Assembly: GCF_026967795.1 (NCBI RefSeq)
Contig: NZ_JAPVBH010000004.1
Location: forward strand, 186,001 to 250,000
Length of the DNA: 64,000 nucleotides
Direction of reading: 5' to 3'
From: Modestobacter sp. VKM Ac-2986
Lineage (GTDB): Bacteria > Actinomycetota > Actinomycetes > Mycobacteriales > Geodermatophilaceae
Position 1 is the first letter of the stretch. Every line of letters starts with the position of its first letter. Shown here piece after piece: positions 57,408-60,362 of the stretch. A model generated the notes under the pieces. That model was not told the origin of the DNA. It made no database searches and was given only the letters and a program-made list of their open reading frames with translations. Both the position numbers and the translations under genes were made by a program.

Positions 57408-57629
57408 TCAGTGCTGGACGGTGGCGATGAGGTCGCCCTCCTGGAGGACCTCGCCCTCGGTGACGTGCAGCTCCGCGATGGTGCCGGCCCGCTCGGTGAG
57501 CACCGGGATCTCCATCTTCATCGACTCGAGGATCACCAGCGTGTCGCCTGCGGCGACCTCGGTGCCGGGAGCCACGAGCACCGTCACCACGCTGGAGACC
57601 ATCTCGGCGTGGATCTCCTCGACCGCCAC
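57408..57629 (-). CDS. Stand-alone biotin/lipoyl-attachment domain protein (TB7.3-like)
   Basis: A 73-residue single-domain carrier. VAVEEIHAEMVSSVVTVLV begins the barrel, and the modified Lys lies in the canonical LVILESMKMEIPVL, the sequence recognised by biotin ligase. It matches the mycobacterial biotinylated protein TB7.3 in size and location (between pdtaS and the sigma/anti-sigma genes). It would carry carboxybiotin for an acyl-CoA carboxylase, but its partner is not known. GTG 57629 has GGAGGAGG about 6 bases upstream. A degenerate carboxylase gene lies just upstream. Confidence 0.94.
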   Translation of the reverse strand: MAVEEIHAEMVSSVVTVLVAPGTEVAAGDTLVILESMKMEIPVLTERAGTIAELHVTEGEVLQEGDLIATVQH

Positions 57630-57728
57630 CGGTTGCCTCCTCCGCGCCTCGACCCGCCGGGGCCGGCGGAGTGCACATGAAAGCACGCACCCCGCACCGG
57701 ACACGTCCGGCCCCGCGCGGGGCGGCCG

Positions 57729-58811
57729 TCAGCAGCCGTCGGGCACGAGCGCACCGGCGATCCGGTGCAGGACACCGCAGACCGCTGCCCCGTCGTGCGG
57801 GACGCCGGTCTCCGGCAGGCCGGTGAGCACGTCGGTGGCCGCGCTCGCCGCCCGGGCGGGACTCGGTCCCGCGGCGCTCACGGTGGCCAGCAGGGCGTCG
57901 TACCAGCCGTCGAGCCGGTCACCGGGCTCGTAGCCGCTGTCGGCGACGACCTCGGGGCCCAGCAGCGGACGGCGTCCGACGCGGGCGCGGATGTCGGGCA
58001 GCCGCCCGGTGACCCGCCCGGCCGTGCCGGGCGGGAGGGTGGACCGCAGCTGCACGGCGACGGCGGCCCGCGGGGTGCCCGGCAGGACCGTCGGCTCACC
58101 GGGCCGGCCGGAGGCGCTGCGCAGCGCCAGCTCCACGGCGTCGACGCCGTGGGCGCGCTCCAGCACCGCCATGTCCAGGGAGAAGCCGGCCGCGACCTCG
58201 GCCAGCTCGCCGTCGGGGTCGATGCCCACGGTGACCAGCCCGCGCCAGCCGATCTCGGGCAGCCGCCGGGCGGCCGCCGGCAGCGGCCCGAGCCCGTCGG
58301 TGGGGGTCCAGGAGACCCGCGGGGTGCCGCCGGCGCGGTCCCGCAGCACCGGGGTGACGTGGTGCAGCCCGGCGGCGGTCACCCAGGCGAGGAACCCGCG
58401 CTCGCTGGCCGGCTCCACGCCGTCCCCACCGAGCCGCTCCAGGACGTCGGCGGGCGGGCCGACCCAGGTGAGCCCGGCGTCGGCCACCGCGGCCGCCAGG
58501 CGGGCACTGCCGGCCAGCGCGGGCGGCACCGGCAGGACGGCGTCCACGCGGGTGCGCCGGGCGGCCTCGACCAGCCGGCGGACGTCGAGGTAGGACTCGG
58601 TGGCCGGCGCGGGCCCCAGCAGGACCGACTCGTCGGCCAGCCGCACGTGCCGGGCGTCCCGCTCGGGCTCGGAGTAGACGGCCACGGCCTTCACACCCAG
58701 CCGCCCACAGGCGCGGATCACCGCACAGGCCATCGGCCCCCGGCCGGCCACCAGCACGCTCTCGACTGCCTGGACCACGTCGTCCCCCTCTTCCCCACCG
58801 ACGCCCGTCAT
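57729..58811 (-). CDS. Degenerate biotin carboxylase-like protein lacking the ATP-grasp core
   Basis: A 360-residue protein. Residues 15-125 match the biotin carboxylase N-terminal domain (VLVAGRGPMACAVIRACGRL, VAVYSEPERDARHVRLADES, TESYLDVRRLVEAARRT, LTWVGPPADVLERLG). The last 75 residues match its C-terminal domain (VADSGYEPGDRLDGWYDALL). The middle is eroded: there is no glycine-rich ATP loop, and where real enzymes have EMNxRLQVEHxVTE this one reads AEVAAGFSLDMAVLERAHG. It should not bind ATP or make carboxybiotin. It precedes the biotinyl carrier by 99 bases on the same strand. ATG 58811 was used; GTG 58778 (VVQAVESVLVAG) is an alternative. Confidence 0.82.
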   Translation of the reverse strand: MTGVGGEEGDDVVQAVESVLVAGRGPMACAVIRACGRLGVKAVAVYSEPERDARHVRLADESVLLGPAPATESYLDVRRLVEAARRTRVDAVLPVPPALAGSARLAAAVADAGLTWVGPPADVLERLGGDGVEPASERGFLAWVTAAGLHHVTPVLRDRAGGTPRVSWTPTDGLGPLPAAARRLPEIGWRGLVTVGIDPDGELAEVAAGFSLDMAVLERAHGVDAVELALRSASGRPGEPTVLPGTPRAAVAVQLRSTLPPGTAGRVTGRLPDIRARVGRRPLLGPEVVADSGYEPGDRLDGWYDALLATVSAAGPSPARAASAATDVLTGLPETGVPHDGAAVCGVLHRIAGALVPDGC

Positions 58812-59016
58812 CCTCCCCCAGCCGCCCGGACGGGGGCGCGGCGGCACGGGCAGCGGGGGCACCGGCCCCGGCGCACCACCGCCGGGCGACCGACCCACCC
58901 GTGAGACCCTTGGCAGGTCAACCGGGCCGTTGCCGGGGCGCGCGAGCGCCTCCAGCGGCCGTCGATCAGCTCCCGGGCCGGAGGGTCCGCGGGCGACTGA
59001 GGAGAGGAGGGCAGCG

Positions 59017-59091
59017 ATGTCCAAGCGTGGACGCAAGCGGCGCGCCCGCAAGAAGAGCGGCGCCAACCACGGCAAGCGCCCCAACGCCTGA
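59017..59091 (+). CDS. 50S ribosomal protein bL37 (24 residues)
   Basis: A 24-codon gene: MSKRGRKRRARKKSG, then ANHGKRPNA. Tiny, extremely basic proteins of this sequence are ribosomal protein bL37 of actinobacteria (seen in mycobacterial 50S structures). It has a strong GGAGAGGAGG site 6 bases before the ATG and a perfect 12-bp terminator after the stop. It is too short for most gene finders. It is convergent with rsrA. Confidence 0.92.
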   Translation: MSKRGRKRRARKKSGANHGKRPNA

Positions 59092-59157: not shown

Positions 59158-59508
59158 TCAGGCGGTCGGGTGCTCCGCCGGGATCGTGAAGGTCTCGATG
59201 CTGGTCTGCTCGACCCGCACCTGGGTGCCGTCCTCGTCGACGGAGACGGTGGTCAGCTGGACCTTGATCCGGTCGCGCAGGCCCACCGGCGTCGGGTCGC
59301 CGCCGCAGCGACGCCGCACCAGCGCCTTGAACTCCTGCTCGATGCCGAACTGCCGCAGGCACGGCGAGCAGTCCTCGAGGTGCTCGGCGATGACCGCCCG
59401 GCGCTCGGGCTGGGTCTCGTTGTCCAGGAACTCGAAGACGTGGGACAGGACGTCGTCACACGAGGTGATCTCGCCGTCCGCGTGCAGGTCGTGAGCGTCG
59501 TTGCCCAT
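59158..59508 (-). CDS. rsrA: Mycothiol-system anti-sigma-R factor (RsrA/RshA)
   Basis: A zinc-dependent redox-sensitive anti-sigma factor of 116 residues that holds SigR until thiol oxidation releases it. The ZAS motif reads AEHLEDCSPCLRQF (His43, Cys47, Cys50), with a further Cys17 that can form the trigger disulfide. The N-terminal helix CDDVLSHVFEFLDNE contacts the sigma factor. Its ATG overlaps the sigR stop by one base (TGATG), ensuring coupled synthesis. Confidence 0.95.
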   Translation of the reverse strand: MGNDAHDLHADGEITSCDDVLSHVFEFLDNETQPERRAVIAEHLEDCSPCLRQFGIEQEFKALVRRRCGGDPTPVGLRDRIKVQLTTVSVDEDGTQVRVEQTSIETFTIPAEHPTA

Positions 59509-60209
59509 CAGTGCGTCGCCTCTTCCGCAGCCCCGGCACGGACGAAGCCGCGCTCCCGGGCGTAGTCGGCCAGCAGCTTCTGCAGACCGCGACGACCGCG
59601 GTGCAGGCGGGACATCACCGTGCCGATGGGCGTGCCCATGATCTCGGCGATCTCCTTGTAGGCGAACCCCTCGACGTCGGCGAGGTAGACCGCCAGGCGG
59701 AAGTCCTCCGGCAGCTGCTGGAGGGCCTCCTTGATGTCGGAGTCGGGCAGGTGGTCCAGCGCCTCGATCTCCGCCGACCGCAGCCCGCTGGAGGTGTGCT
59801 CCTCCGCGGCGTACAGCTGCCAGTCCTGCACCTGCTCGGTGGGGTACTGCTGCGGCTGGCGCTGCTTCTTGCGGTAGCTGTTGATGTAGGTGTTCGTCAG
59901 GATCCGGTACAGCCAGGCCTTGAGGTTCGTGCCCTCGGCGAACTGGTGGAACGCGGAGTAGGCCTTGACGAACGTCTCCTGCACCAGGTCCTCGGCGTCG
60001 GAGGGGTTGCGGGTCATCCGCAGCGCCGCCGGGTAGAGCTGGTCCAGGTAGGGCAGCGCGTCGCGCTCGAACCGGGCGTCGCGCTGGGCGCGGGTCTCGG
60101 CGAGCTCGCTGCGGCTGCCGTCCGCGCGCGCCTCGGGCGTCGGCTCGGGGGTCTGCTCGGTCAGCGCCGCCGTGGTGGCGGGGCTGTCGACTGCGGGCTC
60201 GTCAGGCAC
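59508..60209 (-). CDS. sigR: ECF sigma factor SigR/SigH
   Basis: An RNA polymerase sigma factor for the thiol-oxidation response. The 233-residue form starts [15 protein letters not shown]. Region 2 is [20 protein letters not shown] and region 4 is [20 protein letters not shown] with [15 protein letters not shown]. The GTG at 60209 has AGAGAGGA 6 bases upstream. The frame continues without stop upstream, with in-frame GTGs at 60248 (8 bases after a TAGGAT box at 60257-60262) and 60353 (just after a SigR-type promoter), which would add 13 and 48 residues. S. coelicolor SigR makes a longer, unstable form in a similar way. Confidence 0.95.
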
Positions 60210-60256
60210 CGACCGTCCTCTCTGCGGCGCCCGGGAACGGACGACCACGTCGGTCG

Positions 60257-60262
60257 ATCCTA
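60257..60262 (-). promoter_or_regulatory. Candidate housekeeping -10 of sigR (proximal promoter)
   Basis: TAGGAT on the minus strand, 8 bases before an in-frame GTG at 60248 and about 48 bases before the ribosome-site-linked GTG at 60209. Confidence 0.4.
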
Positions 60263-60362
60263 GCCGGGTGCGGCCGGGTCGGCCGGGGGGACGGCGGACG
60301 GGTGCCGACCCGCGCGCTGTGCGCGCCGGTGCGCCCGGGACTGTGCTGCTCACGGTCGGTGC

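Follow-up and report, generated by a model that had tools for sequence, protein, structure and literature searches.

Within a 64,000-nucleotide window of the genome of Modestobacter sp. VKM Ac-2986 (contig NZ_JAPVBH010000004.1, positions 186,001 to 250,000), the gene beside a lone biotinyl carrier of the TB7.3 type encodes a 360-residue protein, hereafter the shell, which is very probably a pseudoenzyme of the biotin carboxylase (BC) family derived from the BC of the sigR-rsrA-bL37-BC-carrier-pdtaS locus. This reading follows from its kinship with the intact BCs of that locus, the loss of the residues that handle ATP, metal and bicarbonate, the predicted fold of a whole BC and the action of purifying selection. 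A preliminary description of this DNA had placed the shell 99 bp from a 73-residue carrier with an ESMKME biotin site, and both coordinates and translations agree with it (Table 1).

A predicted biotin carboxylase fold without the catalytic residues

Pfam detected Biotin_carb_N (PF00289) in the shell with an E value of 1.3e-28 (100.1 bits), Biotin_carb_C (PF02785) scored 18.4 bits against a curated cut-off of 32.4, the Pfam scan gave no match to the ATP-grasp domain PF02786, and the NCBIfam BC models matched over approximately their first 115 positions. The AlphaFold2 (AF2) model (predicted local distance difference test, pLDDT, 90.7) has the BC fold over residues ~12-357, with no lid present. 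Of the two outer BC domains that the preliminary description considered kept, the N-terminal one is recognized by Pfam, and the C-terminal one stays below its Pfam cut-off and is seen in the predicted fold. The nearest solved sequence, and also the best Foldseek match, was 5mlk, AccA3 of Mycobacterium tuberculosis (Rv3285), at 28% identity by structural matching. Unlike the shell, AccA3 has BC activity and a carrier domain of its own. Because the BC fold is predicted and orthologues occur across the Geodermatophilaceae, a chance resemblance to BC is excluded.

Residues were compared between 21 intact BC rows (20 distinct) and the shells, 95 of the main group and 23 of the group g6, using what we take to be E. 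coli residue numbers (R338 included). Equivalents of K116, K159, H209, K238, E276, N290 and R292 were kept in 0/95 main-group and 0/23 g6 shells, and the T-loop columns were empty in 118/118. The E288 equivalent was kept in 95/95 main-group and 1/23 g6 shells, that of E296 in 0/95 and 22/23, and that of R338, Arg256 of the shell, in all aligned shells (95/95 and 23/23, thus invariant in 118/118), with hhalign giving the same pairing. Among the 173 columns that are near-invariant in intact BCs, 46 are retained by 90% or more of the main-group shells, and over the first 115 positions 21 of the 39 such columns are among these 46. Profile alignment set AEVAAGFSLDMAVLE of the shell against LEMNTRLQVEHPVTE of BC, a VLPV stretch stands where BC has HPGYGF, and W168, G201 and G209 are among the new residues fixed across shells.

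Residue roles were taken from excerpts of papers on Lactococcus lactis pyruvate carboxylase (PMC9581989) and AccA3 (PMC5407890). The former excerpt places the lid at 131-203 and assigns K116 and the T-loop to ATP, E274 and E286 to Mg, and R290 and E294 to bicarbonate, with Arg341 stabilizing deprotonated biotin (PMC9581989). The loss of the ATP-grasp loop and of the metal/biotin motif, reported in the preliminary description, is borne out by the missing ATP-grasp match, the replacement of LEMNTRLQVEHPVTE and the residue counts, and the comparison with intact BCs shows the catalytic motifs gone from the shells and a biotin arginine kept in the main group and g6. The model, a BC fold without lid or ATP residues, does not restore a complete ATP site, and an ATP site rebuilt by structure is ruled out by the residue losses together with that lidless model. 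With its biotin arginine retained, the shell may still be able to dock biotin or carboxybiotin.

Kinship with intact biotin carboxylases and origins of the shells

In families other than the Geodermatophilaceae, a complete BC with the motifs GGGGxGM and EMNTRLQVEH occupies the corresponding neighbourhood, made up of SigR, RsrA, frequently an antiparallel bL37, the carrier and PdtaS (loci L044-L047, and L049 up to the contig end). The free-standing AccC-type BC of this locus (for example L152, Actinoallomurus spadix; L133, Frankiales metagenome-assembled genome (MAG) RYN_183) and the shell have in common their locus with its nearby carrier, the N-terminal domain, the C-terminal helices and the fold as a whole. 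The shell differs in that it has no lid or T-loop, has lost the catalytic residues and is ~85-100 residues shorter. In a BC tree the locus BCs and shells grouped apart from AccA3/PccA (support 100/99). The shells formed one clade (97/96), with a long-branch warning, and the number of origins was for that reason taken from a SigR/RsrA tree instead.

The SigR+RsrA tree, built on a short alignment with ten forks open and with L121 dropped as columns were lacking, placed L205 (Frankiales MAG RYN_151) together with L133 and L046, both of them intact loci (90/96), and a single clade of the nine shell loci was rejected (approximately unbiased (AU) test, p = 0.0088); for these two reasons at least two conversions of BC to shell are likely. 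In L205 a 241-residue shell is closely followed by a frame resembling the enoyl-CoA hydratase that comes after the intact BC of L046, a candidate assignment. L109 (1752-2930, minus strand), from a family of two MAGs, matches the ATP-grasp model over 93-208 of 211, the first half being absent, and retains a full C-terminal domain; by this domain content it is a transitional BC form. L108, of the same family, carries a more worn BC, and a scan of genome contigs with the L109 protein confirmed nothing.

The carrier was matched in 214 of 394 genomes of the class, and 60 places were picked from the class and order carrier lists, at least one per family. An intact BC lay within ~5 kb at 15 of them (L114 with a variant Gly loop) and a degenerate one at two (L108 and L109); L093, with a weak off-place BC match, was counted as none. 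Eighty named SigR loci, chosen by likeness to one SigR and hence biased to close kin, comprised 25 with a degenerate BC (one cut by a contig end), four with an intact BC (RYN_183, A. spadix, a Frankiaceae MAG and a Streptosporangiaceae MAG) and 51 with none in the stretch covered. Records duplicated across samples were L121/L133, L108/L128, L154/L035 and L143/L041.

TB7.3 (Rv3221c; NCBIfam NF004547) corresponds to the carrier half of the pair and stands without BC or shell at the mycobacterial loci L106 and L107, as it presumably does in mycobacteria in general. The TB7.3-only slot that the preliminary description gave for M. tuberculosis is one alternative among others: several actinobacterial families have a complete BC in the same place. 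TB7.3 is described as a putative biotin carboxyl carrier protein (BCCP) subunit in an excerpt of PMC3048393. In the outside loci shown, the lone carrier is ~57-70% identical to that of Modestobacter whether or not a BC adjoins it, which argues for an independent role; in this comparison L043 and L053 are one genome, and among the 69 rows classed as 'none' are carrier domains belonging to large carboxylases; two showed no MK motif. At L046 (5035-8607, plus strand) genes for an enoyl-CoA hydratase and an M24 peptidase come after the intact BC and before the carrier, an arrangement that may hint at the ancestral pathway. To look for a carboxyltransferase gene in the interval from BC to carrier, the open reading frames of L074, L121 and L046 were inspected; only L046 was annotated, yielding the hydratase and peptidase.

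Purifying selection on the shell

Median ratios of non-synonymous to synonymous substitution rates (dN/dS; Nei-Gojobori method, NG86) were obtained from up to 19 Modestobacter genomes, the pairs (171 for the shell) being non-independent. The shell gave 0.226, the carrier 0.125, RsrA 0.258 and GNAT 0.327, with 0.164 for SigR and 0.156 for PdtaS, both partly covered. Along the shell the values were 0.178 (codons 16-128), 0.106 (129-180), 0.217 (181-240), 0.431 (241-285) and 0.237 (286-340), the former lid stretch being the lowest of the five segments. Elsewhere, g6 shells gave 0.19-0.26, g8 shells 0.30-0.35 and intact BC pairs 0.22 and 0.18. In a neutral simulation the probability of no stop codon was 0.41, 0.11, 0.046 and 0.026 at divergences of 0.1, 0.3, 0.5 and 0.7, and among the listed Geodermatophilaceae shell rows the only internal stop was one TGA, in a fragment from genome G081. 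The shell is held by purifying selection as a protein, and pseudogene decay of the Modestobacter shell group is disfavoured by dN/dS, open frames and neutral simulation; as the preliminary description had argued, this is not decaying DNA, with neither frameshift nor relaxed selection in close relatives.

Distribution of shell and carrier in the Geodermatophilaceae

A first search gave a shell match, mostly full length, in 106 of 112 Geodermatophilaceae genomes, including named members of Modestobacter, Geodermatophilus, Blastococcus, Klenkia, Goekera and Trujillonella. Partial shells occurred in G016, G095, G096, G097 and G099, the G081 shell was divided between two contigs, and the four g6 genomes matched at ~42% identity. 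Six genomes were without a match (G036 and G071-G075); the carrier search then led to diverged shells at the same place in G071, G073, G074 and G075, for a total of at least 110/112; in G036 the sequence ends 54 bases past the carrier, and G072 is 74% complete and showed no lone carrier. G037 has two shell copies, on contigs C183 and C244, from either a duplication or a mixed assembly. The carrier, which in Modestobacter scored 107 bits against NF004547 (curated cut-off 75) and has an ESMKM-type biotin site, was found in 109/112 genomes and not in G032, G058 or G072 at E 1e-15. Nearly the whole family thus retains the shell beside an intact carrier, in keeping with the pairing first described.

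G058 (g4, 100% complete) and G032 (g3, 95% complete, one contig) belong to different genera. Looser carrier searches in both returned only carrier domains of other proteins, and no carrier remnant stood out at either locus. GNAT follows the shell directly in G058 (L221/L023), an unrelated frame and then GNAT follow it in G032 (L220), and GNAT and PdtaS remain at both. The L220 frame at the carrier's place resembles a histidine phosphatase, as a candidate.

Gene neighbourhood

Table 1. Features of the shell-carrier region; positions are those of the window.
Feature	Position	Strand	Evidence
Pseudo-biotin-carboxylase shell, 360 residues, GTG start	57729..58811	-	Translation, Pfam, AF2 model, fold matches
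Lone biotinyl carrier (TB7.3 type), 73 residues, GTG start, ESMKME	57408..57629	-	Translation; NF004547
99-bp gap, shell stop to carrier start	57630..57728	-	Sequence coordinates
Shell codons 129-180, at place of BC ATP lid	58272..58427	-	Alignment, dN/dS
Shell codons 204-218, AEVAAGFSLDMAVLE replacing LEMNTRLQVEHPVTE	58158..58202	-	Profile alignment, residue counts, hhalign
Shell Arg256 codon, equivalent of biotin-stabilizing Arg	58044..58046	-	Alignment, residue counts, hhalign; role from excerpt of PMC9581989
bL37 ribosomal protein gene, 24 residues, antiparallel between rsrA and shell	59017..59091	+	Matches bL37 chains of solved ribosomes
rsrA, mycothiol-system anti-sigma factor	59158..59508	-	TIGR03988, 91.5 bits
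sigR, extracytoplasmic function (ECF) sigma factor; stretch used here, frame opens further upstream	59508..60263	-	Pfam Sigma70_r2, r4_2

The preliminary description assigned the pair to a redox-sigma locus. With the bL37 gene lying on the opposite strand between rsrA and shell, the shell-carrier pair is, judged by strand order, a transcription unit separate from sigR-rsrA, and a common operon is ruled out by gene order. The motif GGAAY-N15-19-GTT, which we take to be the SigR-type promoter consensus, was found upstream of the shell in 0/56 loci on either strand, a search with this simple consensus only. A redox role for the shell, also suggested earlier, thus finds no support beyond location. 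Short bL37-type genes are easily overlooked by gene finders. Between bL37 and shell (58900-58922, shell strand) lies an element like AAGCTGAC followed by TCTCACG, which recurs in the nine upstream stretches shown and is a candidate promoter or regulatory site, whether for bL37 or for the shell. A SAMspd query at the locus gave many off-frame matches and was left out. Elsewhere the Modestobacter genome has two more BC proteins, in open frames of 596 and 705 residues.

What the shell might do

As a whole explanation we tentatively propose, regarding it as plausible though short of probable, that the sigR-locus BC became a pseudoenzyme, one which would no longer carboxylate biotin and could still dock biotinylated or carboxybiotinylated carrier domains via a remnant biotin site around Arg256. 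Once docked, it might shield, position or report those domains, its clients presumably reaching beyond the neighbouring carrier to the carrier domains of the large AccA3- and PccA-type carboxylases. With fold and biotin arginine kept and ATP handling all lost, the simplest function in accord with the data would be to dock a biotin arm and perform no chemistry on it. Several observations count against this proposal. The Arg256 equivalent is present in 0/4 diverged g7/g8 shells, and the alignment shows a P at its position in L108 and a D in L205 (the residue count over L108, L109 and L205 gave 2/3, only L109 being sure). Its partners in the biotin/bicarbonate site (E. coli Y82, K238 and R292 equivalents) have gone from the shells as well, the carrier-BC contact is reported in an excerpt of PMC9581989 to run via the lid, absent from the shell, and 43/60 carrier loci have neither BC nor shell beside the carrier. 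Finally, the shells of G058 and G032 are full length and open, with 29/29 family-invariant residues, though the lone carrier is absent.

The last two genomes bear equally on the reading put forward in the preliminary description, in which the shell works only with its own operon's lone carrier as a scaffold, buffer or sensor. Shell and carrier are adjacent on the same strand, 51-154 nt apart, in 55/56 Geodermatophilaceae loci (L023 being the single one with no carrier) and both occur in nearly all genomes of the family, but a shell that stays intact after the carrier is lost can be worth keeping without it, just as the carrier persists without the shell elsewhere, so its clients would have to include the carrier domains of AccA3- and PccA-type carboxylases; exclusive binding to the neighbour is weakened and looks quite improbable. 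Pairing of the shell with an active AccA3-type BC via the BC-BC dimer surface, where it would tune or inhibit the enzyme as a dominant-negative or stabilizing subunit, needs no lone carrier and so fits both genomes, and it is consistent with the retained whole BC fold and with the AccA3- and PccA-type proteins in the genome. We hold it unlikely, since R19, E23, F363 and R366, which we take to be the interface residues of the E. coli BC dimer, are not clearly kept when shells are aligned. AccA3 does form such a BC-BC dimer in the crystal, according to an excerpt of PMC5407890.

If the shell had acquired some new ligand, or a function that has nothing to do with biotin, by means of its own invariant residues, this would account for the fixed W168, G201 and G209, for VLPV in place of HPGYGF and for the low dN/dS of the former lid stretch; the retained biotin arginine and the persistence of the gene beside a biotin carrier speak against it, and we consider it improbable. 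That the gene is slowly decaying towards a carrier-only state is suggested by the lineages without a BC and by the shorter, more worn shells of g7/g8, L108 and L205, but is very improbable given the shell's dN/dS of 0.226, the lack of internal stops in listed full-length copies and the neutral expectation of 0.046 at a divergence of 0.5. It is hardly conceivable that the shell still works as an enzyme on ATP, its active site having moved elsewhere in the protein: E288 and R338 equivalents do persist in all main-group shells, but the lid, the T-loop and the equivalents of K116, K159, H209, K238, E276, N290 and R292 are all gone, and E288 is kept in just 1/23 g6 shells.

Implications

Pseudoenzymes are known from many enzyme families, and in plants the BADC proteins, dead relatives of the carrier subunit of acetyl-CoA carboxylase, act as regulators; here it is the BC subunit that is dead, an analogy and not a homology. 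In the open-access literature searched we found no inactive or pseudo biotin carboxylase described, nothing on the shell protein under BC with SigR and RsrA or BC in Geodermatophilaceae, and nothing under biotin carboxylase together with Arg338. One locus here presents a whole series, from complete enzyme through partial form and selected shell to carrier alone and even shell alone, which makes testable both the role of a lone TB7.3-type carrier without its own BC and the use of a BC without ATP. It is conceivable, although on balance doubtful, that Actinobacteria more than once turned the sigR-locus BC into a lidless, (carboxy)biotin-docking reader or guard of biotinylated carriers. If this is true, such docking shells would form a class of regulators new to biotin-dependent metabolism.
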